A stretch of 28,026 bases of DNA. It comes from a virus. Shown piece by piece: positions 1-17,500 of this stretch. The translations under genes and the position numbers were made by a program. Where the stretch lies: positions 1-28,026 of the IMG/VR virus record IMGVR_UViG_3300028557_000160. One strand, given 5' to 3'. The notes under the pieces were generated by a model that saw nothing but the letters and a program-made list of their open reading frames with translations, did not search any database and was not told the DNA's origin. The stretch's first letter is position 1. Every line of letters starts with the position of its first letter.

Positions 1-3000
1 CACCTGCTGCACAAGCTGTGATGGCTCTCCAAGGATATAGGCATCGGCCAATGCGGTCTGATCGGAGAGCCGCTTCTCCAACTCCGCGATCTTCGCCTCG
101 TCCCTGACGCCCCCATCCCGGAGCTTCTGGCCCCAGTCGGATTGGATCTGGTCTATCGTGTAGACCGGACGACCTTGGTGAGACGTCATAGACGTCATCA
201 TGTGGCCGACTATGTTGGGCTCGGGGAAGTGGCCGGAGCGGAAGTTGTCCCATTCTCCACTCTTGCCGAGCATGTTCTGCACGGCTTCAAAATCTGCCCA
301 TGTGTGCGGACCACCGCTGCCAACGCCTTCTTCGCGCATCTGCTTCATTCTGGCGCGAATGGCATCATCGCCAAATTCAGGCAGATGTATCACCGTCTCC
401 CTATAGGTTGGGTTGGACGGGTCGAGGGAGTAGGCGTTCCATTTGGTGGGCTCGAAAGCCGGCAGCGCATTCTTGCGTGCTTTCAACGCGTCAAACTGCC
501 GGTCGATCTCAAGGACGCGCGGGTCGGCGCGCTCCTCTGGCGAGTTGATCCCTAGCCCGCGCGCCCGGTATTCATCAGTGATGAGCCGGAGGGCTTGCCG
601 CAGAGCCTCCTCCTCTTGCCCGATCTGCGCGCGTTCTGGCGTGACACCATACGTGCGCTCCTGCATCTGCACCCTATTCTCCCCCGCCACCCGCGCGAGG
701 TCTGAGACTGGGACGGCTTTGCTCGGGTCGACGCGAATGTACTCGCGCCCGTTGGTTGTCGTAAACGATAGCCCGTCATGCCCGGCCGCTGACGCCGCCT
801 TGATGAGTTCGCCCATCGTGGTGGACATGGGCAGTCCCAACTGCTGCTTCGCCTCGACCCAATTCTTGGTGGTCAGCAGATTGTTGAACGTGACGCTCTC
901 AGACGTTACCGAGCCGTCTTCGCCGGCGTACATGCGCGCAACGCCCTCGTCGGGCGACATGAACAGCGCGCCGCCCTCGGTCCCCTTGGTCGACTTAGGG
1001 TCGCGCCCTTTCTGCACGCCACGGTAAAGCGTCACCGTCTCCGTTGCGCCCTTGGGCATCAAGAGATCAAGCAGCCCACGAGCTTCAAGTTCCGACGCCT
1101 TCACGCCGCGCTGCTGGAGCGTCTGTGCGGTGACCTTATCCTTCGGCCTGAACCCGCCGAGGACTTCGTCGAGCTTGGAATAGAACCCCAGCGCATCAAA
1201 CTGCCGGCGCATAGTCCGACCGGTCGCTTGGTCCTGCTCTAACGTGACCGAACTAGCTTGGTCGTCGACAAGGGAGGAGAGGATTTCGGAGGGCCGCAGC
1301 GCCGCGAACGTCGTCGCTTCCTGATCGCCGAGTCCTTCCTCCTCAAGCAACGTCGCCAAACGATCGTTCAAATCTTGCTCGACATACGAATCGGAGGCGC
1401 GCAGTCCTGGCGCCCCGGCTGCATCGGGGTGGAAGAAGTCGAGCGCGCTGCGCACCCGAGAGGAGTCCCAGAAGAAAGCGGAGTCCTTGCCGATCCCCTG
1501 CGCGGTGTCCCTGTAGATCACCCCGTCGTAGCCCAGACGGTCCAGTTCCGCTGACAGATCCCGCGAGAACCGGTGGTTCACCGTTCCGGGTTGGCTGGTG
1601 ACGTACTGGCCGTTCTTGAGGATCCACCCCGCCACGAAGCGCTTCAGGGCCTCCGGGCCGTCGAAGTCCGGATGCTTCATGCCCGCGATCCACGCCATCG
1701 GCTGATGCCAATGGCCGTAGTTCAGGCTGGTGACGTGCGGCATCCGCAGCATCTTCTCCGCGCGAACGCGCAGAGGCGTGACGGAGGGGTTCGGGGACTC
1801 CGACAGCTTGCCGGCGCCCAGCCATTGGTAGAGACGGTCCAGCAGGGCCGTGGGGTGCAGGACGCGGGCATTGGCGCCATGCGGCTGGCCGAGAGACACA
1901 TGGAACCCGAACGCGCCGGTCGAGCGGTAGGGGTCGATCGTCTCGAGCGTTCCAAGGCGGGCGCCGTGGAAGGCTTCGACCGTGAACGCCTGCGCACGCG
2001 CGCGCGAGTCTACGGCATCACGTTTCAGTTCATCGGCGAGGAAGGCTTCGAACGCGGCAGCCCGGGCTGCGGGGTCTGCGAGGACTTGGCTGATTGCAGC
2101 GCGCTCTGCGCCTCCTTCAACAGTCCCTTGCGGTCCGGATGTCCCTTCGGCAGCTTCTCCGCCTTGGCGATCAGCCCCGACGCCAGCGCCAATATCGCGC
2201 CCTTCTGCTCTGCCATTCTCAATCTCCCTCAACAGCGCCGCTTTGAGTTGAGCCCGGCGCGTGGTCTCTTTGTAGAGCTTTTCCTTCAGACCCACAAACG
2301 GCGTACCGTCGTCGCCCTGTTGGGGCCCCTGCATCGCGGCGCCCATGCCGGAGACGAGCGACGACAGCACTTCGCCCTCGTCGGGCTTCGCCTGCACTGG
2401 TGCTTCTTTCTGGGGCTTCAGTTCCTTGGTCAACTGCTCGAGACGGGCTTTCACCTCGGCCAATCGCAGCGCACGCAAGAACGGGGTGGGGGTCGACTGC
2501 TTTTCAAGTCGGACCAGATCCTCCCGCTTGTTCGCGAGCGTCTGCTCCGTGTGCTTCACCAGTCCCGGCACGCCGACCACGATGTTGGTGATCTGACTCA
2601 CGAGGCCGATGGGATCGGACTCGGCCGCGATCAGGCGGTCGTAGCCCGGCTGAATGTAGGTCGCCTCGCCACGAAGTTCGAACTGGAACGCCGCGCCGTT
2701 GTCGACCTTGCGGGCGCGCGCAATCACCGGGAACCCCGAGATCGAACCGACCTCGATGTCGAGCGGCGCGCTCGTCCAATGCCGGCCCATGGCGCGCAGG
2801 ATCTCGGCGCGGATCGCCTCGCCGGCTTCTTTCCGATCTGTGACGTCGCCCTGCTTGGTGGTCGTGTCGAGGCGCATGGCGAACTTGTCGCCCCGGACGT
2901 CTTGAACCTTCGGAGCATCCGCTTGGTAGGCGGTCATCACCTTTTCCAGGCGCGCAATGTCGCCCTTCGTGTTGGCGGCTTCGCGCTGCGCGGCGAGGTA

Positions 3001-6000
3001 GGAGCGCTCATGGCCGCGCTTCGCGGCGTCGAGGGTGCGCTCCTCCTTTTGCAACTGGGCCAATTCCAGAATACGCGGGTCGCCGGTTGCCGCCGCGCGC
3101 AGTTCCGCAGCTTCCGGCAAGGGGCTGTCGATATCCTCCATCGTCCGGACGCCTCGAGCACCGGCCCGGAACTTCGCGTCGTTCTCGGCTTTTCCCTCCA
3201 GCAGGTTCCACGTCAGCACGTCGGCCGAGGTCGCCGTGATGTAGCGGTAGATCTCGACCTCTTTGTTCTCGTTGCCCTGCCGGATGATGCGGCCGTCGCG
3301 CTGCACCAAGTCGGCCGGGTTGTACGGGGCATCAAGGTGATGCGCGGCAATGAGGTAGCGCTGGCCGTTGGTGCCCACACCCATCTTGGCGGAGGAGCCC
3401 AACAGAATGCGAACCTTGCCCTCGCGGACAGCCTTGAACAGCTTCGCCTTCTGCAGATCGTCCTTGGCGTCGTAGATGGTGGCGATCTCGTTGCGGGGGA
3501 TACCAGACGCCACGAGCCGATCGATGATGTCCGGATAGAGATCGGACCGGCCGCGCGTCAGCTCCTCGATCTCGGCCGCGGCGTCCTCGTCGGAGTCGGT
3601 CTCCTCCTGGCCGGCCAGCTTGCCCCGGATCTTCTCAATCTGGTTTTCGTCGTCGACGTCCTCGTCCTGCTCGACCTTCGGCTTTTTCTTTCGGGTGTTC
3701 GGGACGCCCATGTCGAGCCAGATGATCTGCGCCAGCGCCGGCTTCTTGCCCTCGCGGTAAATCCGGGCGACGTTCTCCAGCATCTTGCCGATCTTGCCGT
3801 TCGGATTGAACGGCGCATCGGGATCGAGCAACCGCGCGTCGGTCGCCAACTGGCGCATGCGCGTATACAGCGATAGGTGGTTCGGCTCGCCTTTCTTGAC
3901 GGGGCCCTTGAGCTTGGCGATTTGCTCGATGAGCGCCTTGTTCCTTGCAGCCTCCTCGGCTGTGAAGGTGGCGTCGACCTTTTTGACCCCGCCGCCCTTC
4001 ACGTTCGGGCGGACGATGCCGACGTCCTCGGCCGACCTGGTGTCCGCGATCCGAGAATAGATCGCCTGGAGTTCCGGCACGTTGACGAACGTCGCCGACG
4101 TGACGTCCTCGAGCTTGCCGTTGGGCTTGGTTTCCAGCCGGACGCGGACGTTGCCGAACGTCGCGAACCACGAGTCGAACCGCTCGATCCCGTACTCACG
4201 GAGCGTGTCGAGTTGCAGGTAGCGTTGGATCGTATAGACCTCGGCCATCGACCGGGACATCGGCGTGCCCGTCGCGAACACGGCCGACCGCCCGGGACGC
4301 GACTTCTCGAGATGCCGGATCTTCAGGAACAGATCGGTGGCGCGCTGCGATCCCTTGACGCCCAGGCCTTTGAGGTTGTGGCGCGAGGTGTAGTCGAGGT
4401 TCTTGAAGGTGTGCGACTCGTCGGTGATAAGGAGGTCGACACCAAGTTCCTCGAACGTGACGCCCGTGTCCTTTCGCTCCTGGGCCAGCAGTTTGGCCAG
4501 CTTCTTCTCGATCTGCTTTTTCTTCCGCTCGATATTCTTGACGGTCGGGTCGCGCGACGGCTTGCTCTTCACTCCCTCCTTACCGATGTCGTCGAAGTCG
4601 GATTCGTTCGCCACTTCCTTGGCTTGGCGCTTCGCGTCCAGCCACGCCTCGAGGATCTCGGCCTTTTCCTCGTTGATGAAATCGATGTACGCCTGCTGCT
4701 GCATCGGCAGGCGGCCGAACGCGGAATGCGTGATGATGATCGCATCCCACTTGTCGGCGGCGATCCGGGCGGCGAACGCCTTCCGGTTCTTCGCCTCCAT
4801 GTACTTCTCTTCGGCGACGAGGATCTTGGCGTTCGGGTAGGCTTGCAGGAACTCGCGGCTGAACTGCTCCAGCATGTGGTTCGGGATCTGGATCAGTGGA
4901 CGCTGGGCCATGCCGAGGCGCTTCGCCTCCATGGCAATGGCCACCATCGTGAAGGTCTTACCCAGGCCGACTGCGTGGTCCAGCAGGGTGTTCCCGAGGG
5001 TCAGGAACCGCCACACAGCGTTCTTCTGGTGCGGCCGGAGGGCAAACGGCACGATCTGCCCCTGTGCGTTGGTGATCGACGTCGCCATGCCGGGGAAGGT
5101 CAGATGCGACCCGTCGACGTCGGTCTTCACGAGGCGGTTGAACTTGTTGTTGTAGAGCGCTTCGAGACGTTCGGCCCGCGCGTTGTCCTCGTACACCCAG
5201 CCTGGGATGCCGGACGTCTGATCGCCGGAGAATGTCTCTGCGATCAGCTTGGCCTTGATGGCCGCCTGCTCGGTCGCCTGAGTGTTCAGGACTTGCCCGC
5301 CGTCTTCGTCTTTGTCGAAGACGCGAACCGGCTTGTTGTTCAGGGCCGCCATGACGAGTTCGACGGCGGACACGCGATCGGTTCCGAACGCCGCCTGGGC
5401 GGCCGGGGTCGAATAGGGCGTCGTGCGGGTCGCCCAGATCCACATCGAGGAGATCGGCTCGAACTTCACTTCGGCATCGCGCAGTCCGATGACCTTGGCC
5501 AGAAACTCGTTGTAGACGTCATTCGGAACCCACGACGTCCCGAACGGCGCGGCGATGTCGACACGCGACAAGGGGGCGGGTTGCGCGGCTTCCAGAGCCG
5601 CCACGTTGCGCTGATAGGCGGGTTCGGCCTTGGCGGCTTCGCGCGCCTGCTCGAGCTTCGTGACGACGTCGCCGGACAGGTAGAGTTCCGCCAGTTCCCA
5701 TTTTTCGCCGTTGGGGTTGCGGTAGATCCGGTCGCCGATCTCAGCGGCGGCAGCGTCTTCCGACACCTTGAGCATGCCCGCGATGCGGGCCATATCGACG
5801 CCGCCGGTTTCGTTGAGCGAGACCGCCAGCGCGTCCGCCGACCCGCGCACGTCGGGACGCGTGGACGGGGCCAGAATATCGGCCGTGAAGATCGCGCGCT
5901 TGGTGGCGACCCCGGTCTCGGAATCGAAGTTCTCAATCGCGGCGACCTTGTAGGAATCCGGATCGTCGGAGAAATCTTTGAGGTTCGGCCGGCTGACCGT

Positions 6001-8931
6001 GGTGGTCGGCGTCTCTTCGCCCGTCGCCTTGTTCTTGGTGACCCGGACGGTGACGGTTTCCTTGTTGATCGGGCCGAACTCTTTGACGAAGGCGTCGTAG
6101 GCTTTGTTCAGTTTCTTGCGCAGCGCCGCGCCGTCGGCCGCCTTGCCTTGCGCCTGACCACCGAGCAACTGGTTCACCACGTCGCGGACGTCGACCAGCA
6201 GGCAGAGGCGCTTCAGCGCCTTGCCGGCGAACTTCTGCGGCACGGCTTCGCCAGTCACGTTCTGGAAAAGCTTCCCGTCCTTGAAATAAAACGATCCTTC
6301 CTTGATGCCGGCCTGGGCGAGGTCGGTCGTCTTGGTGATGTCCTCGAGGGTTTCGCCGCGGCGCACGAAGACGTCGGCCGGCATCTTTTTCGCCGCCTCG
6401 GCAATGCGCTGCCCAAGGTTCTCGGACGTACCGGCGAGCACGGGCGACGCGTCCCGGTACATCGTGCCGGTCAACCGCATTTCGCCCAGCATCATGTCGG
6501 GGCGGGCGGCGAAGTAGGCGTTGATGGACGTCGGGCCATCGGGAGTCTGGACCTCCTGAGTCTTCAGGAACTCCGCCGTCTCCGGGCGACGCTCCTCCCC
6601 CTGAAGCCGCTTGCGCAGGAAGATGATATCCGTGGTGACGTCCGTCCCAGCATTGCCGGCGAAAGCGCCGGACCGACCGCCGGGGAGGCGAATGGCACCG
6701 ACCAGGTCAGCCCTATCGGCGATCAGCCGGCGCGCGCTGTCGTTCGTCTTGTCCATGGTCCCCGAGGACGTGATGAACGCGACGAGCCCGCCCGGGCGCA
6801 CCTTGTCCAAGCCCTTCGCGAAAAAGTAGTCATGGATCAGGAGCTTAGAATACTTCCGGTCCGTCAGCGTGTAGTTGCCGAACGGCACGTTGGAGATGGC
6901 CAGATCGAAGAAATTGTCGGGGAACTGGACTTTTTCGAACCCGTCGATCCGAACGTCGGAGCCCTCATAGAGGTACTTGGCAATCGCGCCCGTGAGCTTG
7001 TCGAGTTCGACCGCTGTCCAGTCCGTGACGGTGGCGAGTTTCGCGGGGGTCAGCCCTATGAAGTGTCCCACGCCGGCCGACGGCTCGAGCGCCCGCCCCC
7101 CGGTGAAGCCCAGGTGCTGCATGCCCTGCCACATGCCATCGATCACCTCTTTCGAGGTGTAGTGGGCATTGAGCGTCGATGCCTTCGCGGCGTTGTATTC
7201 GTCGGCCGTGAGAAGATCGGTGATCTCCTGGCGTTCCTTCGCCCACTTCTTCGCGTTGTCGGAATACCTGTTGTCATCGAACACGGCTTGCGCGAACGCG
7301 CCCCAGCCGACGTACTTGACGAGAATAGCTTTTTCTTCGGCGGTGGGCTTGCGCTCGGGCTGCTCTTGCAGTTCCTTCAAGAGACGGATGGCCGCAATGT
7401 TGGCGCGGACCTTCTCTTTGGCGCCGCCTTCACCGATCGCGTCGAGTTCGGTGATCCGGTAGTTCTGCCGCCGGCGGGCCTGACGTTCCTTGTCTGCCTG
7501 CTCCTTTGCCGCCTTCAGGTCCGCATCGGTGGCACGGTCAGAACTTCCGCTTGCACGATCTCGGCCACCACTAGCGGGATCTGCTTCAGCTTCTCCGCCG
7601 TCTCCTCGAAGCTTCCGTCTGCCCCGACCGCTTGCCGGTGCATCTGCGTCCGCAGGTCGCTCTCCATCTCGAGCGCTTCCAGCGCCGTCGCCTCCAGATG
7701 GTTGGCCAGCGTCCCCGCCTTCTCCATCTTTTTGTAGACCTTCGGGAAGGACTCCATCAGGAATCGCTCCCTGAACTTCACGTACCCGGTTACGGCGCGC
7801 TGCTCTTCTGCGGTCAGTTGCATTGTCTTCCAAGTCCCTCGTGATGACGGCCGCGTTGTTGCCGATCGCGGCGGCCTCGGTCTCCAATTGACCGCGTTTC
7901 ACGAACTCGGCCTCGATGGCCTCGATCTGCTTGGCTTTGGTCCTCGCAGATTTGGCCTGACCGTAGATCCACGATACCGCGTCCAGATCGGCCTTGGTCA
8001 GCTTCGGCAGGATCTTTTTGAGATCATAGAACAGCTTGCCGTCGGTGCCAATCTTCTCCAAGGCTACGGCGTGCTTGCGGGCAACGTCGGAGACGGGCTG
8101 TCCGTAGGTGGCGGCGAGGCTGTTGACGAGGGACTCGGGGACCCCGACCGGGGAGACCTGCTCTCGCGCAGCGGGTTCGCGGGGAGACTCTGTTGTGGAG
8201 GGGGTGGACTCCGCTGGCGACGGGACAGAAGTCTCCGGCGTTGGCTCGGCCTCTGCCTCCTCCATAGCGGGAGGCTGCTCAGCGGGCGCCCTGGGCGGCT
8301 CTGGCGCTGCTGACGAATCTCCAAGTGCGCGCCGCAATTCCCACGGTGAGGGGTTATGGGCGCCCAACTCAAAGTAGCTCATCACGTGAAAGTGCTTCCC
8401 TTCCTCCCCATTCTGGACAATTTGAAAAGCAAGCTCACCGCTATCATCTCGATAGAGGACGATGGTTTTCTTCCCATCGCGCTCGGTAACACGAACGGTG
8501 TATGTATCCTCCATGCCCGGATCATGCACCTTATCGCCCGTCCGCAGACCATCGGCGGCGGCGGCCCAGCCGTCGCGTTTAGTTTGCTCGGCGGGCGATA
8601 GGTTCTGCGGCGTAAAGACGCCGACTGTGAACGGATTGGGAGACTTTGCTGTCACCGCTTGTTTGGCCGGTTCCGGGCGGGGCTTAGCGGCCTCCAGGGC
8701 GTCATCGATGATGCGCAGTGTCCCCTCGCCCAGTGCCGCCTCGATCTGATCCAGAATATCCGCGCGCGCCGTGATCAGGTCTTGCAGGACCGGAACGAGG
8801 GCAGTCCGGACAGCCTCATCCTCCGACTGTCCATCGGCCAGCGCCTGCTGGTAGGCCGCCGTGATCGCAGCATGATCTTCCTGTGCCAGGAAGCGTTTGG
8901 TCTGCGAGAGGCATTTAGCCAACGATGCCAT
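1..8931 (-). CDS. Giant phage polyvalent protein, DarB-like methylase-helicase with ART-like domains (3' end outside window)
   Basis: One open frame of 2977 codons runs off the left edge. The start is ATG 8931, with AGGA about 10 nt upstream and a 17-nt overlap with the preceding gene. Residues 1-370 are a helical, partly Pro/Glu-rich region of unknown role. Residues about 560-800 are an N6-adenine methyltransferase: SAM motif EPSAGVG (616-622) and catalytic NVPFG (681-685). Residues about 1290-1900 are an SF2 SNF2/strawberry-notch-like helicase: GLGKT (1322-1326), DESH (1504-1507), FATGTP, GSSAKMGVGTN and RDGRIIRQGN (1878-1887). A coiled-coil extension follows to about 2237. ART-like domain 1 covers about 2318-2510 (FHG, GAFGFH, GYDG), ART-like domain 2 about 2632-2735 (LYRG, ALFMSPDEGVARMYAG), and a phage domain with IQSDW ends at 2929-2933. 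Related DarB/polyvalent proteins are packaged and injected to protect phage DNA and modify the host. That role here is inferred from homology by eye and from position in the virion module. Confidence 0.9.
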   Translation of the reverse strand, partial: MASLAKCLSQTKRFLAQEDHAAITAAYQQALADGQSEDEAVRTALVPVLQDLITARADILDQIEAALGEGTLRIIDDALEAAKPRPEPAKQAVTAKSPNPFTVGVFTPQNLSPAEQTKRDGWAAAADGLRTGDKVHDPGMEDTYTVRVTERDGKKTIVLYRDDSGELAFQIVQNGEEGKHFHVMSYFELGAHNPSPWELRRALGDSSAAPEPPRAPAEQPPAMEEAEAEPTPETSVPSPAESTPSTTESPREPAAREQVSPVGVPESLVNSLAATYGQPVSDVARKHAVALEKIGTDGKLFYDLKKILPKLTKADLDAVSWIYGQAKSARTKAKQIEAIEAEFVKRGQLETEAAAIGNNAAVITRDLEDNATDRRRAARRNRVREVQGAIPDGVLPEGLQKDGEGGDAGQPSGGDGAGSARDGERPADADAPASGRGRRKLRGDGGEAEADPASGGRDRASGSSDRATDADLKAAKEQADKERQARRRQNYRITELDAIGEGGAKEKVRANIAAIRLLKELQEQPERKPTAEEKAILVKYVGWGAFAQAVFDDNRYSDNAKKWAKERQEITDLLTADEYNAAKASTLNAHYTSKEVIDGMWQGMQHLGFTGGRALEPSAGVGHFIGLTPAKLATVTDWTAVELDKLTGAIAKYLYEGSDVRIDGFEKVQFPDNFFDLAISNVPFGNYTLTDRKYSKLLIHDYFFAKGLDKVRPGGLVAFITSSGTMDKTNDSARRLIADRADLVGAIRLPGGRSGAFAGNAGTDVTTDIIFLRKRLQGEERRPETAEFLKTQEVQTPDGPTSINAYFAARPDMMLGEMRLTGTMYRDASPVLAGTSENLGQRIAEAAKKMPADVFVRRGETLEDITKTTDLAQAGIKEGSFYFKDGKLFQNVTGEAVPQKFAGKALKRLCLLVDVRDVVNQLLGGQAQGKAADGAALRKKLNKAYDAFVKEFGPINKETVTVRVTKNKATGEETPTTTVSRPNLKDFSDDPDSYKVAAIENFDSETGVATKRAIFTADILAPSTRPDVRGSADALAVSLNETGGVDMARIAGMLKVSEDAAAAEIGDRIYRNPNGEKWELAELYLSGDVVTKLEQAREAAKAEPAYQRNVAALEAAQPAPLSRVDIAAPFGTSWVPNDVYNEFLAKVIGLRDAEVKFEPISSMWIWATRTTPYSTPAAQAAFGTDRVSAVELVMAALNNKPVRVFDKDEDGGQVLNTQATEQAAIKAKLIAETFSGDQTSGIPGWVYEDNARAERLEALYNNKFNRLVKTDVDGSHLTFPGMATSITNAQGQIVPFALRPHQKNAVWRFLTLGNTLLDHAVGLGKTFTMVAIAMEAKRLGMAQRPLIQIPNHMLEQFSREFLQAYPNAKILVAEEKYMEAKNRKAFAARIAADKWDAIIITHSAFGRLPMQQQAYIDFINEEKAEILEAWLDAKRQAKEVANESDFDDIGKEGVKSKPSRDPTVKNIERKKKQIEKKLAKLLAQERKDTGVTFEELGVDLLITDESHTFKNLDYTSRHNLKGLGVKGSQRATDLFLKIRHLEKSRPGRSAVFATGTPMSRSMAEVYTIQRYLQLDTLREYGIERFDSWFATFGNVRVRLETKPNGKLEDVTSATFVNVPELQAIYSRIADTRSAEDVGIVRPNVKGGGVKKVDATFTAEEAARNKALIEQIAKLKGPVKKGEPNHLSLYTRMRQLATDARLLDPDAPFNPNGKIGKMLENVARIYREGKKPALAQIIWLDMGVPNTRKKKPKVEQDEDVDDENQIEKIRGKLAGQEETDSDEDAAAEIEELTRGRSDLYPDIIDRLVASGIPRNEIATIYDAKDDLQKAKLFKAVREGKVRILLGSSAKMGVGTNGQRYLIAAHHLDAPYNPADLVQRDGRIIRQGNENKEVEIYRYITATSADVLTWNLLEGKAENDAKFRAGARGVRTMEDIDSPLPEAAELRAAATGDPRILELAQLQKEERTLDAAKRGHERSYLAAQREAANTKGDIARLEKVMTAYQADAPKVQDVRGDKFAMRLDTTTKQGDVTDRKEAGEAIRAEILRAMGRHWTSAPLDIEVGSISGFPVIARARKVDNGAAFQFELRGEATYIQPGYDRLIAAESDPIGLVSQITNIVVGVPGLVKHTEQTLANKREDLVRLEKQSTPTPFLRALRLAEVKARLEQLTKELKPQKEAPVQAKPDEGEVLSSLVSGMGAAMQGPQQGDDGTPFVGLKEKLYKETTRRAQLKAALLREIENGRAEGRDIGAGVGADRQGGEAAEGTSGPQGTVEGGAERAAISQVLADPAARAAAFEAFLADELKRDAVDSRARAQAFTVEAFHGARLGTLETIDPYRSTGAFGFHVSLGQPHGANARVLHPTALLDRLYQWLGAGKLSESPNPSVTPLRVRAEKMLRMPHVTSLNYGHWHQPMAWIAGMKHPDFDGPEALKRFVAGWILKNGQYVTSQPGTVNHRFSRDLSAELDRLGYDGVIYRDTAQGIGKDSAFFWDSSRVRSALDFFHPDAAGAPGLRASDSYVEQDLNDRLATLLEEEGLGDQEATTFAALRPSEILSSLVDDQASSVTLEQDQATGRTMRRQFDALGFYSKLDEVLGGFRPKDKVTAQTLQQRGVKASELEARGLLDLLMPKGATETVTLYRGVQKGRDPKSTKGTEGGALFMSPDEGVARMYAGEDGSVTSESVTFNNLLTTKNWVEAKQQLGLPMSTTMGELIKAASAAGHDGLSFTTTNGREYIRVDPSKAVPVSDLARVAGENRVQMQERTYGVTPERAQIGQEEEALRQALRLITDEYRARGLGINSPEERADPRVLEIDRQFDALKARKNALPAFEPTKWNAYSLDPSNPTYRETVIHLPEFGDDAIRARMKQMREEGVGSGGPHTWADFEAVQNMLGKSGEWDNFRSGHFPEPNIVGHMMTSMTSHQGRPVYTIDQIQSDWGQKLRDGGVRDEAKIAELEKRLSDQTALADAYILGEPSQLVQQV
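2025..2216 (-). CDS. Nested 63-residue protein, +1 frame inside the polyvalent gene
   Basis: ATG 2216 is preceded by GAGGGAG with a 7-nt spacer, a strong ribosome binding site, and the frame stops at TGA 2025. About 54 of 63 codons end in G or C, as in real genes of this window. In the same stretch the host frame gives a Gly/Ala/Glu-rich low-complexity peptide with more A/T third positions, and it becomes convincingly protein-like again only over the last 60-80 bases. The product starts MAEQKGAILALASGLIAKAE, is probably helical, and has a basic, Pro/Ser-rich tail. No family was recognised. It sits in the linker between the helicase extension and the first ART-like domain. The alternative is a pair of compensating frameshifts in one polyprotein, but the good ribosome binding site argues for separate translation. 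Confidence 0.6.
   Translation of the reverse strand: MAEQKGAILALASGLIAKAEKLPKGHPDRKGLLKEAQSALQSAKSSQTPQPGLPRSKPSSPMN
7515..7823 (-). CDS. Nested 102-residue protein, +1 frame inside the polyvalent gene
   Basis: ATG 7823 to TGA 7515, wholly inside the giant gene but one frame over. About 86 of 102 codons end in G or C. The host frame across the same bases gives a Gly/Asp/Arg/Ala-rich peptide with only about 40% GC at third positions. The nested product starts MQLTAEEQRAVTGYVKFRER and has a regular pattern of hydrophobic, Glu and Lys residues typical of a small helical protein. It resembles small phage proteins of the TAEEQ...FPK...M...GTL type, but I assign no function. The upstream signal is modest: GGAAG close to the ATG and GAGGG about 12 nt away. 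The host frame has no usable ATG, GTG or TTG between this stop and the methylase domain, so the methylase must be translated through the linker or by frameshifting. Confidence 0.6.
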   Translation of the reverse strand: MQLTAEEQRAVTGYVKFRERFLMESFPKVYKKMEKAGTLANHLEATALEALEMESDLRTQMHRQAVGADGSFEETAEKLKQIPLVVAEIVQAEVLTVPPMRT

Positions 8932-9412
8932 GCGTTTTCGTTCCTGTGGTTTTCGCGAGGAAAGCGGTGACGACGGTCATGACGAAGAGATCGTCTTCGG
9001 CGATGTCGATCTGGGGGATCTGAGCGATCTGAGCGATCTGAGCGGGCTTTGCCCGCTTGGTCTTGCCGCGGATAACGGTTGCGACCGCGTGCAGTCCGGT
9101 CCGGCCGATCGCCGAAGCCCGGGGCGTAACGAGGCGGTAGGGCTGCGCCAGCCGGTCCGTGACGTCTGGGGAGCCACCAAGGGCCGGTTGCGTGACGACC
9201 TGCGCGGCGGTGGTCAGCGCCGCAGAGAGACTGGCCGACCCGGACAGGGTGGCCGTGATGTCGTTCGCTGCGCCGGTCGACGTCAGGTCGGCGGTGAGGG
9301 ACGCCGACGCCGTGATGTTGGCCGCGATTGCGCCAGCGGCAACCTCGCCCGTCGCCCAGTACCGCCCCGCAAAGTAGCGAGGCGGGAAATAGCGCGGGGG
9401 GTTCTGGGCCAC
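8915..9412 (-). CDS. Small phage tail-associated protein with YFPPRYF-type N-terminus
   Basis: A 165-residue protein starting at GTG 9412, one base after the TGA of the upstream gene. The N-terminus (residues about 5-20) has the aromatic/proline pattern RYFPPRYFAGRYW, which I know from small structural proteins encoded next to tail genes in many phages. Residues 25-75 are an Ala/Thr/Ser-rich stretch resembling a beta-rich repeat. Residues 124-135 contain a short AQI repeat encoded by three perfect 9-bp units. The C-terminus is hydrophobic (VMTVVTAFLAKT). The last codons overlap the start of the polyvalent gene by 17 nt. The function is unknown; minor tail or tail-fibre-associated protein is the likeliest guess from context. 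Confidence 0.7.
   Translation of the reverse strand: MAQNPPRYFPPRYFAGRYWATGEVAAGAIAANITASASLTADLTSTGAANDITATLSGSASLSAALTTAAQVVTQPALGGSPDVTDRLAQPYRLVTPRASAIGRTGLHAVATVIRGKTKRAKPAQIAQIAQIPQIDIAEDDLFVMTVVTAFLAKTTGTKTHGIVG
9017..9043. repeat. Three tandem copies of a 9-bp unit
   Basis: The unit GATCTGAGC occurs three times without mismatch on the plus strand. On the minus strand it encodes Ala-Gln-Ile repeats in the 165-residue tail-associated protein. Because the unit is a multiple of three, gain or loss of copies keeps the reading frame. Confidence 0.9.
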
Positions 9413-9413
9413 G

Positions 9414-9902
9414 TCAGTCCGTCAGATCGTAGACCAGGGCGGTGCGGTTCCCGTCACCGTCAACGGTCGCCGTGATCCGGGTCTTGTCATCGGCCAGGGC
9501 GCTGGCGATCGTGATCGTGGTTGTGGCCGCGCCCGCGACCTTGCCCGCCGTCGCCGCCGCGATCAGGCGCGGGGCGTTGCGGACGGAGAGGCTGCTCTCG
9601 ACGTCCTCGGCATCGAGGATCTGCGCCGCGAGCGATTGCGGGGACAACTCCGCGAACGGGGTGATAGCCGCCGCGAGCGTGCCGGTGGCGTACCGCGTGG
9701 CCGTGACGGCGCCGGTCCCGGTCAGGGCCGCGATCATGAACCCCTTGGCTTCGATGGTCGACGTGACCGTGGCCACGCCGGCCGACGTGCCTGTTCCCAG
9801 CAGCGCGGCGAGGACCGTGGCGGACACCGCTCCAGTCCCGGCCAGGGCCGCAGCGCCAGAGACGACGAGCTGCCCCGTTGCCGTCAGCGTGCCGGTGCCC
9901 AT
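9414..9902 (-). CDS. Repeat-rich phage tail-associated protein
   Basis: A 162-residue protein. ATG 9902 is chosen because GAGG lies 8 nt upstream; TTG 9905 in the same frame is possible. Residues 1-75 contain degenerate repeats of the type GTGxLxAT, giving an Ala/Gly/Thr/Val-rich beta-like region. The C-terminal 75 residues match by eye a domain common at the end of phage structural proteins (RLIAAATAGKVAG, then DDKTRITATVDGDGNRTAL). The coding frame signal continues 8 or more codons upstream of the ATG and joins, one base out of frame, the Gp80-like fragment that starts at 10050. This may therefore be the back half of a frameshifted or chimeric gene. A role in the tail or at the particle surface is inferred from context. 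Confidence 0.7.
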   Translation of the reverse strand: MGTGTLTATGQLVVSGAAALAGTGAVSATVLAALLGTGTSAGVATVTSTIEAKGFMIAALTGTGAVTATRYATGTLAAAITPFAELSPQSLAAQILDAEDVESSLSVRNAPRLIAAATAGKVAGAATTTITIASALADDKTRITATVDGDGNRTALVYDLTD

Positions 9903-10050
9903 CAACGGTGCCTCGGCGTTCGTGTTCGTCCTGCGTCTCGGGCTCCGCCGTGTGCAGCGACAGATACCGAGGGCTCTTGACCCACCCGGGCACCTCGCCG
10001 ATCAGGATCAAAGCAAGGATCTCGTTGGCGGTCTGCGCTCCTTTAGGCAT
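9903..10050 (-). pseudogene. Truncated Gp80-like tail protein N-terminus
   Basis: ATG 10050 opens a frame beginning MPKGAQTANEILALILIGEV and continuing to YLSLHTAEPETQDEH. This is the characteristic front of small phage tail proteins of the Gp80 type (ANEIL...LYVSLHTADP). After about 45 residues the frame degenerates into Arg/Gly/His-rich nonsense down to a stop at 9487, while convincing coding continues in the +1 frame as the repeat-rich tail protein. The usual downstream motif of the family (YTGYARV-type) is absent. It is either a remnant fused by recombination to a new gene, a frameshift mutation, or a frameshifting site. The start overlaps the TAA at 10043-10045 that ends the read-through extension of the upstream gene. 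Confidence 0.55.
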
Positions 10051-10105
10051 GCGGAACCGGATGCGCGGTGATGGCTTTGATGAGACCCTTGTCGTCGCGC
10101 TCGAC
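10043..10105 (-). other. In-frame continuation of the small gene beyond an amber stop
   Basis: Directly after the TAG at 10106-10108 the same frame stays open for 20 codons to TAA 10043-10045, encoding VERDDKGLIKAITAHPVPHA. About 15 of 20 codons end in G or C and the peptide looks like the natural end of a phage protein (FxVERDxxGxI...ITAxP). The extended frame would overlap the next start (ATG 10050) by 8 nt, like the tight junctions elsewhere in this cluster. It is likely the original 3' end of the gene, lost through a sense-to-TAG change or reached by suppression. Confidence 0.6.
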
Positions 10106-10282
10106 CTAGAACCGGAAGGACGTGGTCTTGTCCTTGTTCTTGGCGAGGGCCTCCGCGATGCAACCGGCCATCTCGGCCTGCGTCATCGGCTTGGGCTCGG
10201 GCGGCTTCGGAGGCTCCGGCTTCTTCGCGACGCTGGCGCCTTTTTTCTCGAGCCGCTTCAGGCTCGTTGCGTTGATCCTCAT
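10106..10282 (-). CDS. Small Lys/Pro-rich phage protein, interrupted by amber codon
   Basis: A 58-residue product. ATG 10282 overlaps the stop of the 1310-residue protein gene as ATGA, so this start is preferred over ATG 10294. Residues 1-20 are basic; residues 24-35 are a Lys/Pro-rich stretch (KKPEPPKPPEPKP); residues 36-50 form a short helix-like segment (MTQAEMAGCIAEALAKN). The sequence then reaches TTSFRF and a TAG. The downstream in-frame codons look coding, so the intact protein was probably 79 residues. No function is recognised. Small genes of this kind sit between ejection and tail-fibre-type genes in related phages. Confidence 0.6.
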   Translation of the reverse strand: MRINATSLKRLEKKGASVAKKPEPPKPPEPKPMTQAEMAGCIAEALAKNKDKTTSFRF

Positions 10283-13200
10283 GCGGCCAAGCACCTCATC
10301 AGGGCAGAGAGACCTTTCAGGCGCCGATCCACAAGGGTCAGGGCTTGGGCGGCCGGCATGGTAACCGGGGTGGACGCCGTCGTGCCGTCGTCTCCCTCGA
10401 CGTCCATCTCGAGGCTGACGTCGACGTCTTCAAAAGCGGCCAGGAGATCCGAGGAGATCGGAGACGGCGAGAGGATGGCAGGGCCGCCGGCGCGCGTGAT
10501 GTCGGCATCGGAGATCCCATACGACCGCAGAGCGGTGAGCATCGGGTTCTCGGGCGCCGCAACAACCGGCTCCGCCGGGACAGGAACAGGGGCGGAGACG
10601 GGGGCTGCGTCTGCTGTGGGGGTGGCAGTAGGCTGCCCACCGACTCTGGCATCAATGGCCTGCCGTAGCGCCTGCAGTTCTTCGCCGGCCGTAGCTACGT
10701 TTGGGCGGGAAAGACCGAGAGCGGCGGCGTACTCGCGAAGCTTGAAAAGGTTGTCGCGCCATCCGTCTCGCGGGACGTAGGCTTTCGGCGTCGGCACCAA
10801 GTCCGCGTCGTCCGCCGCATTGGCTGCGGCTTCCATCCGCCCCCATTGCGCCGCACGACGCGGACCTGCCGGCCCTTTCGTCATGCGAACGCCGTCTTGC
10901 GATACGCTGAAGACGTAGGTGTGGATCTTGGGCTTGAACTCGATGCGGTACTTCCGACCATCGGGCAAGGCTACGTCCGGACCGATGTCCGCTGTGCTGG
11001 CGGTCAGTTCCGTAATGAATGCCTCGCGCGTCATCTGGCGCGGATTCGTCCCCTCGACAATCTCCTCAATGGTCTTCTCGGGCGCATGCACGCCGTCGTT
11101 CTTGGACAGCCGACGCACCGTGTTCGCGACCACTTCCAGAGCCGCCGAGGCTTCGGCCGGGGTATCTATGGCCCCGTCGACGCCGGGGACCTGGTCGGCG
11201 ATGGGGGCTGGGATCTGCGCGAGGAGCGGTCCAGCAACCTGCTGCACCAGTTCAACCGCGTCCGCGTCGACGTGGCGGGCCACGGCCCTGACCTGGTCGA
11301 CGACAGCCGTCACGGCGGTGTCGACGGCCACCGTCTGCACTGTCTCGGAGATCGGCTTGCCGGCCAGCGCGTCCTCGACCGTCTGCTCGATCAGGTCGCG
11401 CGCCGCGTTGGAAAGCTTTGAGTCCTCATTCTGAGACGCGAGATCGAAGGCCAGTTGCCCTTGCACGATACGGGCGAGCAACTGCGCGCGGTTGCGGGCG
11501 CGCTCGAGACGCGCCACGCCGCCATAGGCTGCTTTCAATTCGTCGTCGGGGTGGACGTTGAGGTTGTCGACGAAGCGACGGATGCCAATGGGGTCCCCCT
11601 CGGCCAGAGTTTCGCCGAACCGGCCGGGCCGCAGAGTCCCAAGAGAGTCCCGGGCGAGGTCCGCCAGCTCTGCGCGGCGAGACTCCGTGATCTTGGTGGG
11701 GTCGACCGGGGGGAGACTCTGCTCGCCCATGGAGAGGCGCGGCGTACCCTCGCTGTCGATGCGCACAAGTCCGGCGCGCTGGCCGGCCTGACGAGCGGCC
11801 TCCGGCCAGTCCGCGGCCGGGGTGCGGGCGGCATGGAGTTGACGGGCCTCATCAAGCGCGGGGTCGAACAGGTCAAGCTGGTTGTCCAGCATCTCCTGGC
11901 GCGCGGTCTCGAGGGCGCCGATGGTGCGCTCAAGGTCGTCCAGTTCGTTGAGGACCGCGCGGCGCTCGTTCTCCAACGCCATCCGCTTCTTTGGCGTGGG
12001 GCGGGAGGAGAGCGAGACCTCGATCGTCTGCGCCTGGTTGTTCAGAATGGCCTGCTGCGCCTTCAAGGCCGAGAGCCCGAGGTCGACGTCGCTGAAAGCG
12101 GGGACGGACTTCAGGGTCAGCGACCCATCTGGTCCTTCATCGAGGCTTTCGCGCAGACGCTCCAGGGCGGCTTGCCCCTCGGCCATCCGTCGCGTCTTCT
12201 CGACTTCGGCGACCCGGGGATCACTGGCGGGCTGGCTCGTTGCGGTGGGCAGATTGTCCGGTTGGATGTCCGGATTATTTGCCGCTTGATCTGCCCGTGC
12301 CGGCTGGGCTTGGGCCGGAGTCGGTGCCGCTACATTTGCCGGTTGGTTGACCGGTTGTCCGCCGGTCTGAAGCGCCGTCGCGACCGCCGCCTGCTCCTGC
12401 GGCGACATGCGGTTCCATGTGTCCTTGCCGGTGAGGGCAACCGCGATCTGCTGGAACGCGGCGCGATCCGGATAGCCTTGATCGTCTCGCGGCAAATGCG
12501 GGATGATGTCGGTCTGCCACGACAGCGGCGGCGGGGCCGGCGGCGGCGGGGTGTATCCGAGCTGCGCGGCGACGGCGAGCTTCTCGTCGGGGGTGAGGCG
12601 GTTCCACTCCCGCTTGCCGGTCAGTTGCTCGGCGACATCCTTGACGACCTTGCGCTGGCTCTTGTCAGGGCCAACGAGATCGGCAAACGAGGGGATGCTG
12701 GGATCTTGGGGCTGTGCGGGGTTGATGGGCTGGGCACTGCCGGCGACATCCGTCGAGAACTCGGGCCGCTCCATGGGAGCGGGGTAGGAGGTGTCGGGGA
12801 CGACGTTGAACCCGGGCTCTTCCGGTTCGGGCGGGGCGGCGCCCGTCGCCGGAGCGGGTCCAGGCTGGCCGGGGGCGGGCGACGCGCCGCCCGGCGCGCG
12901 CGGGTCGGTTTTCGCGCCGGGCTTGGCCTCGGCCGGACTGACGAACAGCGAGAACGGCGCCCACCCTTTTTCAAGGGCTTCGTATCGAGCACCCCGCGAG
13001 GCGGATAGCTGCAGGGCCTGCGACCCGCCACCCGTGAGGAAACCGATCAGGGCCGCGTCGCTGATCCCGTCGAACATGCCGCGGGACGGGTCATGACCCG
13101 CCAACGTATTGGCGACGAAGTTCTGCGCGAAGCTCTGAAAACTCTCCTGCAGAGATTCCTCGAAGCCTTCCCGCGAGGCGGCCATCAGATAGGCGCCAAG

Positions 13201-14211
13201 CATGGACTTCGACTTGAACGGCCAATTCAGGCTGGCCACGATCGGCAAGGATTCCGACGCACCTATGAGTAGGCCGCCGACGTAAGCCGTGGCCAAGGCG
13301 TGGTCCGACACCTCCCGTCCATCAGCGCGGGACTTGATGGCATCGTCGAATGTCTCGCTCGACGTCGACAAGGCGCCGAGTGCCCCGACCAGCCACATCC
13401 GCATCACGTCGCTTTGGCCAGCCAGTTTTCCAAGCGCATTGGCGCCATAGAACCCGATGACCGAACCGATGCCCTGACCGAGCTTGGTGCTGAAATCCTC
13501 TTGCCGGGCCGGGTCGCCGGGGAAGTACAGCTTGCCCTTGGTCTCGAGCCACTTGCCCGCCGCCTGGAGCGTGTTGGTGTCGATCTTGTCGTCGTATCCA
13601 ACGCCCCATCGGGCGACAGCCACGCCGTCCCCGATACCCTTGGCGAGACTGCTCGCGAACGACGTCGCCCCTTGAATGGTGCTCTCGGCAAAGTTGACGC
13701 CCCAGGTTTCCAGGGGGCGCTGGGAGTCCGCACGGGCCCTGTCGAGCACCTTCTGCTCGCGGTCCATGTCGGCCTTGAACTGCTGGCGCAGGTCAATCTG
13801 CCCGGGCAATGCCGGGAGGTTCCGATTGATGGCACCGAAGACTTGGCCGAGCGTCGACGTCTTGTCGTCTTCCAGACCCTGACGCCTGGAATCGACGGCC
13901 GCTTGCCGATCCGCCAGATCTGCGGCCTTGGTCGACAGCGGCTTGTAGCCGAGCCCGACGTGATCCAGCAGCCCGCCGATCAGGCCCTTGTGATTCGGGT
14001 CCTTCATCGTGGCTTCGTCGCGCTTGATGTCTTCCTCTAGCCACGACGTTTTCTCGACGGACTCGATCGCATTCTGCACGGGCAAATCAAAAAGATTCGG
14101 GGGCGGCCGCGTTGGATCGATTGAGTACGCTGGGGTTGCGCCGGCGGACTCATCCAGCAGCGAACCCAACTCAGCGTGCAACGCTTGGTCGTCCGAAGGA
14201 GTGTCGGTCAT
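10279..14211 (-). CDS. Large internal virion (ejection) protein, T7 gp16-position
   Basis: A 1310-residue protein starting at ATG 14211 (GGGA 6 nt upstream). Residues about 180-405 contain several Gly/Ala-rich hydrophobic stretches (around 245-265, 272-283, 305-327, 386-400) and an amphipathic segment EGFEESLQESFQSFAQNF, a pattern I know from phage ejection proteins thought to enter or cross the membrane. A Pro/Ala-rich linker follows (about 430-510). Two copies of an LTGKxxWNRxxPxExxAVA motif lie at 530-551 and 593-614, separated by a poly-proline stretch. Coiled coil is likely at about 665-790. The C-terminus (VDRRLKGLSALMRCL) resembles the conserved end of large phage internal proteins. 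No lysozyme or transglycosylase motif was found. Its place after the gp14-like and amidase-bearing genes supports an ejection role; this is inference. Confidence 0.75.
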   Translation of the reverse strand: MTDTPSDDQALHAELGSLLDESAGATPAYSIDPTRPPPNLFDLPVQNAIESVEKTSWLEEDIKRDEATMKDPNHKGLIGGLLDHVGLGYKPLSTKAADLADRQAAVDSRRQGLEDDKTSTLGQVFGAINRNLPALPGQIDLRQQFKADMDREQKVLDRARADSQRPLETWGVNFAESTIQGATSFASSLAKGIGDGVAVARWGVGYDDKIDTNTLQAAGKWLETKGKLYFPGDPARQEDFSTKLGQGIGSVIGFYGANALGKLAGQSDVMRMWLVGALGALSTSSETFDDAIKSRADGREVSDHALATAYVGGLLIGASESLPIVASLNWPFKSKSMLGAYLMAASREGFEESLQESFQSFAQNFVANTLAGHDPSRGMFDGISDAALIGFLTGGGSQALQLSASRGARYEALEKGWAPFSLFVSPAEAKPGAKTDPRAPGGASPAPGQPGPAPATGAAPPEPEEPGFNVVPDTSYPAPMERPEFSTDVAGSAQPINPAQPQDPSIPSFADLVGPDKSQRKVVKDVAEQLTGKREWNRLTPDEKLAVAAQLGYTPPPPAPPPLSWQTDIIPHLPRDDQGYPDRAAFQQIAVALTGKDTWNRMSPQEQAAVATALQTGGQPVNQPANVAAPTPAQAQPARADQAANNPDIQPDNLPTATSQPASDPRVAEVEKTRRMAEGQAALERLRESLDEGPDGSLTLKSVPAFSDVDLGLSALKAQQAILNNQAQTIEVSLSSRPTPKKRMALENERRAVLNELDDLERTIGALETARQEMLDNQLDLFDPALDEARQLHAARTPAADWPEAARQAGQRAGLVRIDSEGTPRLSMGEQSLPPVDPTKITESRRAELADLARDSLGTLRPGRFGETLAEGDPIGIRRFVDNLNVHPDDELKAAYGGVARLERARNRAQLLARIVQGQLAFDLASQNEDSKLSNAARDLIEQTVEDALAGKPISETVQTVAVDTAVTAVVDQVRAVARHVDADAVELVQQVAGPLLAQIPAPIADQVPGVDGAIDTPAEASAALEVVANTVRRLSKNDGVHAPEKTIEEIVEGTNPRQMTREAFITELTASTADIGPDVALPDGRKYRIEFKPKIHTYVFSVSQDGVRMTKGPAGPRRAAQWGRMEAAANAADDADLVPTPKAYVPRDGWRDNLFKLREYAAALGLSRPNVATAGEELQALRQAIDARVGGQPTATPTADAAPVSAPVPVPAEPVVAAPENPMLTALRSYGISDADITRAGGPAILSPSPISSDLLAAFEDVDVSLEMDVEGDDGTTASTPVTMPAAQALTLVDRRLKGLSALMRCLAA

Positions 14212-14223
14212 CGTGTTCCCAAG

Positions 14224-14252
14224 TTGTCGAACGGAAAGGATCGGCCTAAGAT
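14224..14252 (+). promoter_or_regulatory. Weak sigma70-like promoter candidate for the plus-strand gene
   Basis: TTGTCG (14224-14229) and TAAGAT (14247-14252) are separated by exactly 17 nt, each matching consensus at four of six positions. The predicted start near 14259 would leave only a very short leader before ATG 14271, so the ribosome binding site would lie at the extreme 5' end. It is plausible because this gene is alone on its strand, but chance cannot be excluded. Confidence 0.25.
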
Positions 14253-14270
14253 GTGCCGAGGGAGGCGTTC

Positions 14271-14537
14271 ATGGATGTGATCAGAAAGCTCGTCATCGAC
14301 CCGTGGCCGACGCCGGAGGGCACCGAGAGTCAAATCTGGTTTGGCCGCACGATGGTGGCCTGGGCGCCGATGTTTATGATCGCGTGGGCTGGACACCTCG
14401 TGTCCACCGGGCTGAACAGTCTCGGCGCGTCGCGGGAGACCTCCGGCATGGTGTTCGTGGCGATACTGGGGCTCGCCACGTTCTGGGTGTTCCTCGCGAA
14501 GATCAAGACGCGATCGTGGCGCGCGCCGACCTCTTGA
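14271..14537 (+). CDS. Small two-TM membrane protein on the opposite strand (holin-like candidate)
   Basis: An 88-residue protein and the only supported plus-strand gene. ATG 14271 has GAGGGAGG with a 5-nt spacer, an excellent ribosome binding site; GTG 14253 in frame is a poorer choice. About 76 of 88 codons end in G or C, as for real genes here, while minus-strand frames across it look like shadows. Two hydrophobic segments are visible: residues about 28-48 (MVAWAPMFMIAWAGHLVSTG) and 59-77 (GMVFVAILGLATFWVFLAK), followed by a basic tail (KIKTRSWR). Size, two membrane spans and charged end fit a class II holin. A superinfection-exclusion or other membrane protein fits equally well. It fills the gap between the two large ejection genes and ends 10 nt from the convergent stop of the 1427-residue gene. 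Confidence 0.7.
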   Translation: MDVIRKLVIDPWPTPEGTESQIWFGRTMVAWAPMFMIAWAGHLVSTGLNSLGASRETSGMVFVAILGLATFWVFLAKIKTRSWRAPTS

Positions 14538-14547
14538 CCGCCGTGTC

Positions 14548-17500
14548 TTAGTTCCCGAGCGCCTTCCCAATCGATTCTTGGAGTAGCCACTGCGGCAAGA
14601 ATGCGCCCGGCTGCTTGCGGCGCTGATCCTGCGCGATCTGCTGATCGACCAGCGACTTAGCAATTGCCTTTATGTCAGACTCCCTTTGCTCTTTAGTCCG
14701 GCCTTGGCCGGGTTCGACGTACTCCTTCGCCGCCTTCTTCATCCAGTATTCCAGTGTCTCCCTGGCCGCGCCTGGATACATCCTCTGATCGAAGGTCGCC
14801 GATTGCTTCTCGGGATCCTGTATCAGCGACTGCACCATTTTCAGTGTGGCAACCGGCATGGTGACGGATTCTAGGTTGGTAGCCGTGGCATTGGCTGGAT
14901 TTGCGGGCTGCTGATTGATCGCTGGGCCCGGACGCAAGCCGGGATTGGGACCGGGGATGCGCATCGAGAGTCCGTTCATCTGGGCGGGTTGGCTGAACAC
15001 GTCATCCGGTACGGACTGCGAGTTGTTGAGGAACGTCTGCGCCGCGCTCGTCGACTGCAGCATCCGGTAGCGGTGCATGTCTGCGAGCGAGACCTTACCG
15101 CTGATCATCTGTGTCGCGATCTGGATACCGTCCTGCTTGTCCTGCGCGCCACGCACCACGAACTGCAGGGCATCGTTGTAGGCGCGCTTGGCGTACCGCC
15201 GCCCATAGAGACCTTCCGCCCGTTGCGCCGCAAACGCCAGAGCCTCGCGCTTTTCCTCGGGCAGGAGTTTCGACCACTCAACCCCACCAAAGATCAGGTT
15301 CTTGGCTTCGTCGGCCGTGATGACCTTAATCCGTGATGAGGTGTCGCGATCTTTGTCCGGGTTGTAGCGCTCATTAAACGCCCGCTCCTGCGCGGCAATC
15401 CGCGCTTCCGTCAGAGCGGTGCGGAACTCGGGCTCGGTCATCTGGGCTTTGCCGGTGTCGGTCATGCCCGGCCGCAGAGCGCCGCTGGCGTCCTGCCCCA
15501 TGGTGTAGAGCTTCCGGCTTTCCTGGGCCTGGGCGACGACCGCGCGAACCTCCGGCGACGCGTTCACGGCGGCGGCGGCATCCGTCTCGAACGTGTGCAT
15601 GAGCTTGGCGATCTTGGACTGGACCGCTTTCTGCAGCTCGCCCTTGATCTTCTGCTTCACGAGATCGCCGCCGTCGTCCGCCGTCGGGGCTAATGTTGCG
15701 GCGTACCCGCGCAGTTCATCGGGTCCCATGGTCCGCAGCGGTTCAATCGCAGCGTAGGACATCTTGGCCGTCTCGATTGCGATGCGCGCCTTCTTGAACT
15801 GGTTCGGCTCGAGGACCGTCTTGGCACGGTCGAGGAACGTGCGGCCCCGGCTGTCTTGAGCTTCAACACCATTGCGTGTGATGTGGTCGATTTCTCCACC
15901 GACCTCGGCCAGGTACGATTGCCGCTGCGCCACTGTCAGCTTGTAAACGAGGGCGCTGGCTTCCTTTTCAGTGAGGTACTTGTAGTTGAACTTCGGTTGC
16001 ATCGGCGCCGGCGGGCCGACCGGGGACGGATAGAGCCGGGCTTCCGGATTCGGGTTGTCGTTGTCGGCGCGCTGGGCTTCTGCTGTTCTCAGAGCGCCGC
16101 TCAGAACCTCTTTGACTGAGCCGATGGTGACGACGTCCTCGGCGGCCACGCCCTCTTCGTCTTGGTCGTCAGTCTTGATCCGCTTCTCGAACGCAGCGCG
16201 ATCGGCCGGGGACATGACACCCAAGATGGCCTCGCGCTCCGCATCTGGCAGGGCGCTGAGCGGCTTGCCGTTGGGATAGCCATCGAGAATCGTTTGGATG
16301 TTGTGCGGGCCGTTGGCCACGGCGAGCGGCTCGGGGAGATCGCCGCGCTCGACGCCACCGAACTCGGGCGATGCTGGGTCAGCCTGACCGCGGACAAGTT
16401 CGGGCGGGGCAGCGTCGTTTGCAACGTCGGTCCGGCTTGCCACGCGTGCATCGGGATGCCCGAAGGCGAGCGTGCGAGACTGCAGAGACTGCGACTTGGC
16501 CGCCCGCTCTGCCGCGACCTGCTGCACGTTGCCGCCGCCCGTGTGGGGCGCGTCGAGCATTTCGCCCTTGGCCGGGTTGCCGACGCCAGACTTGTCGAAA
16601 TAGTGCTGAACCTTGGTGTCGCCGAAATCAAGCCGGGCGTCTTTGTACGCGCCGACCGTGACGACCTGCTCCGGCTTGGTCCCGGCCGAAGCGGCAAAGT
16701 CGCGGGCGGACTGAGCGCCGAGGGAGAAGCCGTAGACCGCATAAGGCCCGGCGTTGCCCTTGATCGCCTTGTTGGCCTCGGCGACGGCCTCCTTCGTGTT
16801 CCAGGCGGTGATGACCTTAGGCTCGTAACCGAGCGCGCGCGCGTGCGCCTCGAACGCCTTCTGATCGAACGCCCCGTCCACGCCCTTGAACCCGAGCATG
16901 ACCCTGGGCTGCGCGCCGCTGGCCACCTGCGGCGCGGCCTGCTGTGCGGCTTTCTGAACCTCGGCGAGTTGCGTCTTGGTGCCGACCTGAATCTTAAGCT
17001 TGCCGCCGTTCTTCTGCTGCTCGGCCGCGAGATCCTTTTTGAACCGCTCGAAATCCCCATCGATGCCGATGCAGCCGGCGGTAACCCCTTGTCGACCGTC
17101 GTGGATGAGGAGACCGTCGCGCTTGTGCTCCTTGGCCGCACGGCCTTCCACTTCCTGGGCAGCGTTCAGTTCGAACGAATCCCACAAAAGGCTCTTGCCC
17201 TCGGAGGCCCGCTGCGAGGCCGAGGTGTAGCGCTGGATCTCGTAGGTGCCGGTGGGGATCGACCCGCGCGATCCTTCACGCCCACCGGAGTTCCACTTGT
17301 AGGTGGTGCCGTTGACGGTGATCGTGCCGGTCAGCTTGTCGCCGTAGCCGTCCTTGTTGATGGCGCGAGTCGTCTGCTCGGCCGCCGCAGTCAGAATACC
17401 CGGCGTGCTCGGCGGGGCGAACTTGTTGACGCCGACCTCGATCTTGGACGCGTTGGCGACCATTGTGCCGCCGGAACGCAGGCGCTTGACGACGTCCATG

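Follow-up and report, generated by a model that had tools for sequence, protein, structure and literature searches.

The window analysed here, a 28-kb virus contig (28,026 nucleotides) from a podovirus-like phage whose tail tube genes are of the T7 type, raises the question of whether a linker of its largest gene also encodes a separate small protein. That gene (the host gene, 1..8931, minus strand) is open over 2977 codons from 8931 to 1, where it is truncated at the window end, and it extends for at least 1,300 further codons in contig G001, which is 99.8-100% identical. It matched PHROG 10089 (E=0) and carries an adenine methylase, an SF2 helicase and further modules. The methylase gave a weak Eco57I match in Pfam, and the helicase module was located at 3274..5043 (minus strand) by Pfam matches (ResIII/Helicase_C) at residues 1297-1886. 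This methylase-helicase fusion identifies the gene as DarB-like, a type of polyvalent protein described in phages and conjugative elements (Iyer et al. 2017, PMC5512222), in which a methylase is likewise fused to an SF2/SWI2-SNF2 helicase and further modules are joined by linkers. A DarB-like giant protein has been detected in the virions of JC1 (PMC9144972), and the host frame is therefore translated in a relative. Outside the giant gene, G001 (about 99.8% identical to the window) contains an extra segment of about 704 bp (L142:14464-15173) at a tail-gene start region, encoding an HNH-endonuclease-like protein, and positions 22598-22605 or so of the window look like the empty site of this insert.

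The preliminary description had proposed that a 63-codon gene in frame +1 lies in a linker downstream of the helicase, 5.3 kb from a first nested ORF of the same gene, with GAGGGAG 7 nt upstream of its ATG, high GC3 and a low-complexity host frame. Coordinates, sequence, spacing and composition all agreed with this proposal. The ORF (2025..2216, minus strand; MAEQKGAILALASGLIAKAEKLPKGHPDRKGLLKEAQSALQSAKSSQTPQPGLPRSKPSSPMN, predicted to form a two-helix protein) starts at the ATG at 2216-2214 and ends with the TGA at 2027-2025, and it lies wholly inside the host ORF, on the same strand and in another frame. It has its own start and a Shine-Dalgarno-like GAGGGAG at 2224..2230 (minus strand). Another TGA at 2229..2231 (minus strand) closes the frame five codons 5' of the ATG, and with the ORF's own stop the nested frame is therefore closed on both sides. 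The RNA of the start region is weakly folded: at -10.0 kcal/mol it lies near the 94th percentile for the gene, whose mean is -17.5 kcal/mol. Across the same bases (2026..2217, minus strand), the host gene reads a linker of low complexity and atypical codon use (NGRAEGRDIGAGVGADRQGGEAAEGTSGPQGTVEGGAERAAISQVL...). Over the nested stretch, GC at codon positions 1/2/3 was 0.61/0.52/0.84 in the nested frame and 0.83/0.60/0.51 in the host frame, and the nested frame had a codon log-odds score of 0.33, against about 0 in the host frame, on a scale where host genes generally score 0.43 +/- 0.21 and +1 frames -0.77 +/- 0.27. As for the flanking modules, which had been described as a helicase extension and an ART-like domain, the helicase upstream was recovered by Pfam, whereas a Pfam search of the host gene returned no match to an ART domain downstream of the nested gene.

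A sister nested ORF lies upstream of the methylase of the same gene, also in frame +1 (7515..7823, minus strand). It belongs to the TnpV family (Pfam PF14198, 31.9 bits with a cut-off of 27, E=1.4e-7), and its codon score was 0.41 vs -0.53 for the host frame. TnpV is known from Tn4451-type mobilisable elements. In most relatives of the host gene, we found a TnpV-like ORF nested in frame +1 upstream of the methylase. On a Cohnella plasmid, an annotated TnpV gene lies inside a methylase-helicase ORF in frame +1, and Stutzerimonas and Burkholderia plasmids carry an annotated hypothetical gene in the same arrangement. Two Clostridia-type genomes contain both free-standing TnpV copies and copies inside a long ORF. 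The 63-residue ORF of the window resembles TnpV as a small gene in frame +1 of a methylase-helicase gene, a place that this small mobile-element protein occupies in phages and plasmids; it differs in giving no match to PF14198, for which reason it was not assigned to TnpV, and in lying at another junction, after the helicase. Sinorhizobium phage PBC5 (L029:1898-8491 and 7915-17697) has two separate ORFs: an upstream giant, which shares the frame of the TnpV-like ORF and terminates together with it, and the methylase-helicase ORF. PHROG 938 has TnpV-like sequence at its end too, and other phages may share the PBC5 layout.

Giant genes were collected from phages, 80 viral contigs, genomes and plasmids, and the phage and viral-contig set, 96 giant ORFs in all, was filtered for same-strand ORFs with a Shine-Dalgarno stretch and a codon use better than that of the host frame. 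The results showed 88 nested coding-like ORFs, every one in frame +1, and none after one synonymous shuffle of each giant. They were located mostly at module junctions, and most of the 88 matches represent one family directly upstream of the methylase. The host frame was open over the nested ORF in all cases, which is partly a matter of ascertainment; a less biased version of this observation came from a search by sequence of 16 loci that the filter had missed, in which a TnpV-like ORF was found upstream of the helicase in ten (three of them weak matches), all ten inside the giant in frame +1. The same filter found no nested ORF in the window's three other giant ORFs. The earlier idea that small overlapping genes, each with its own start, reside in polyvalent-gene linkers thus holds for the window ORF, and more strongly for the relatives, as judged by 88 cases in 96 giants against none in the shuffled set. 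The best explanation for the window ORF is that it is one of a class of small genes in frame +1 at the module junctions of methylase-helicase polyvalent genes. Similar hidden small genes are present in the linkers of giant-gene relatives in many phages and some plasmids, and nearly all of them are unannotated.

Several further loci were noted in the course of this survey. Within the N-terminal portion of the giant gene, a nested +1 ORF is conserved between Erwinia phage Pavtok (L027:6146-6376) and a relative of 60,714 bases (L054:4593-4823). A 275-codon +1 ORF in a methylase-helicase gene (L090:9141-9968) appeared by eye to be an endonuclease-type insertion and not a linker gene. On three plasmids (L133:4714-5019, L134:4684-4989 and L135:3430-3768), the nested small gene is annotated and the giant ORF is omitted or shortened; phage annotation does the reverse, keeping the giant and dropping the nested gene, so that one of the pair is usually lost.

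The junction downstream of the helicase, where the window ORF lies, is occupied by a second nested family, here called KQARQIIREK. Its members are nested in frame +1 in about 20 alphaproteobacterial-type phage contigs, with a conserved ATG and mostly an SD-like stretch, and the family also occurs in Sinorhizobium phage PBC5, Agrobacterium phage Atu_ph08 and Ruegeria phage 45A6. All 20 viral loci, and Ruegeria phage 45A6 in addition, have the ORF in frame +1 of an open host. Changes at nested codon positions 1/2/3 amounted to.297/.275/.426, compared with.173/.117/.447 in the adjoining host-only control; in the host frame, conservation is therefore highest at the third position and lowest at the first, which is the reverse of the control. 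In 105 of 120 pairs, the nested protein was more conserved than the host reading. These results are direct evidence that the nested frame of this family is a selected protein. The preliminary description had named loss of the frame, ATG or ribosome-binding site in relatives, and homologues fused in frame, as signs against its reading; relatives keep the frame, the ATG and mostly the Shine-Dalgarno stretch, and no in-frame fused copy of the post-helicase family was seen. A PDB match of the family to N-WASP (E=1e-4) was judged to be a chance similarity of a short helix.

The window ORF ranked first among all six-frame ORFs of the window in a search with the KQARQIIREK profile (E=0.00085, over 27-29 residues). 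When all loci were searched, it was the best match outside the family (E=0.06, and 0.26 with a wider family). The reverse phmmer search from the window ORF returned a family member first, hhalign aligned 27 residues at 80% (P=1.4e-5), and the only links of the window ORF among 105 nested proteins were to this family. The resemblance had been noticed by eye before the profile was built, so these statistics are somewhat inflated. Both are nested in the same kind of gene, and they share frame +1, a post-helicase module junction in a DarB-like gene, an own ATG, mostly a Shine-Dalgarno stretch, and a predicted helix-loop-helix with the same loop and a P.g.P.R..lLKqA motif. The C-terminal helix-loop-helix with R..(l)LK.A is recognisable in the window ORF over 27-29 residues, whereas the N-terminal IDPPxPFDTLQxW, in which D, T, L, Q and W are nearly invariant in the family, is absent from it in the alignment. 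Identity is about 16-27%, and the flanking modules differ. On this alignment evidence the window ORF is probably a distant relative of the family; it was not filed as a member because the N-terminal motif is absent, the homology is short and E is 0.06 in the wider set.

Closer relatives of the 63-residue protein were sought as well, as the preliminary description had suggested. The phage search by tblastn yielded no homologue, free-standing or otherwise close, and among the viral contigs only the near-identical one matched. This sole other copy, in G001, is identical over the nested stretch. No free-standing copy was found in plasmids, which were searched with a related-family member as the query. 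Pfam, PHROG, NCBIfam and PDB searches with the 63-residue ORF gave no match. The nearest giant genes (L034-L038), whose modules at the corresponding junction differ from those of the window, have no nested ORF there.

How the small gene came to lie in the linker can be read in two ways, and the preliminary description had offered both linkers as landing sites and separate genes fused by losing stops. Because the nested codon use is typical and the host codon use atypical, the nested frame looks older, and since TnpV occurs both free-standing and nested, we lean towards trapping. The search for an unfused ancestor of the window locus found none; a small gene between two polyvalent genes in L051 was considered as a free form between unfused modules and was set aside, having no evident similarity to the window ORF. 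Overprinting would give the same product by a different history, with the linker present first and the small gene arising de novo in its +1 frame. This history would fit the shuffles of the host gene, in which ORFs with an ATG and a Shine-Dalgarno stretch arose far more often in +1 than in +2 (930 vs 17 of 1000), matching the all-+1 pattern; it would also fit the lack of a free-standing copy of the window ORF in these searches, and the nested C-terminal tail, which is of low complexity where the host frame is protein-like. We nevertheless consider it rather unlikely, since typical nested against atypical host codon use is the usual sign of an older nested frame, and since the sister gene TnpV exists free-standing. 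Stop avoidance was rejected as the cause of the +1 frame: over a random gene, the host was open no more often in +1 than in +2 (0.175 vs 0.259 with the host gene's codon use). A host reading rich in acidic residues, and in most genomes tried also lower in Cys/Trp, results only from the +1 phase, and we infer that this linker-suited composition explains the +1 frame better than stop avoidance does.

The ORF might also be a product of chance, an untranslated by-product of a GC-rich, low-complexity linker. Its length, ATG and ribosome site are not unusual, because synonymous shuffling of the host gene produced a +1 ORF of at least 60 codons with an ATG and a Shine-Dalgarno stretch 930 times in 1000; the nested stretch itself stayed stop-free in 866 of 1000, and the absence of phage homologues in the tblastn search, with a match only in the near-identical viral contig, points the same way. 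The codon use argues otherwise. A coding score of at least 0.30 was reached in none of the 1000 synonymous shuffles, in which the region scored -0.32 +/- 0.12, and the nested ORF thus clearly exceeds chance by its coding-like codon use. Chance is made improbable by this result, by the absence of false positives of the same filter in 96 shuffled giants, by the sister nested ORF being a Pfam family, and by the reciprocal best match between the window ORF and a post-helicase nested family under constraint.

If internal initiation served regulation only, by way of ribosome traffic or pausing at the domain junction, the peptide itself would have no role. The location of nested starts at module junctions would suit this explanation; the related-family peptide is conserved at the amino-acid level, with second codon positions the most constrained, which makes it very unlikely. 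Finally, two compensating frameshifts (sequencing errors or mutations), by which the nested frame would be the true host reading and not a separate gene, would explain why it resembles a coding frame between two host-frame stretches and are hardly credible, as a stop closes the nested frame just before the Shine-Dalgarno and ATG, dozens of separate assemblies show this layout, the distinct strain G001 has the identical sequence at the nested ORF, and related-family members have conserved ATGs and their own stops.

Judged from the sequence, then, 2216..2025 is quite probably a genuine small gene that is translated separately, in frame +1, from the linker that joins the helicase extension to the module after it. 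On the late mRNA, ribosomes would start at the nested gene's own Shine-Dalgarno and ATG, and from the same bases host-gene ribosomes would make a hydrophilic, disordered linker. The product of the nested gene would be 63 residues long, a helical hairpin followed by a tail that is basic, Pro-rich and disordered; AlphaFold predicted a two-helix hairpin with pLDDT of about 90 in both helices, followed by the Pro-rich tail, and a fold search returned only generic helical hairpins, with no E below 0.77. Because the small gene is encoded inside the giant gene and both are on one mRNA, our guess, and a doubtful one, is that the small protein serves the giant ejected protein as a partner or assembly chaperone and that the two are made in step. 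A role as antitoxin or immunity protein towards the 'ART' module next to it was also considered and found no support, as related nested ORFs precede other modules and Pfam did not confirm the ART label.

Small genes that lie wholly within another gene on the same strand, with their own start, are known from Rz/Rz1, with Rz1 inside Rz in BcepIL02 and JC1. Rz1-type proteins are spanin lipoproteins with a known role, whereas the window ORF has no visible lipoprotein signal and its host gene is unrelated. Compared with the DarB-like polyvalent proteins as described, the linker-nested genes are the new element here: searches of the text of PMC5512222 found neither TnpV nor overlapping genes mentioned, and our literature search, whose coverage was incomplete, turned up no description of nested genes in these giant genes.

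It is conceivable, if somewhat short of probable, that the linkers of these giant genes form a dual-coding layer in phages and plasmids of several bacterial phyla, encoding small helical proteins (TnpV before the methylase, other families elsewhere), always in frame +1. If so, the giant ejected protein and its small partners would form a single unit of inheritance and expression. The giant anti-restriction proteins, which rank with the largest that phages produce, have hitherto been annotated as one protein per gene; recurring, conserved small proteins encoded in their linkers would be an overlooked part of phage and plasmid anti-defence. Low-complexity linkers would become informative, and they would offer a natural system for testing the origin of overlapping genes and the reason for a single frame.
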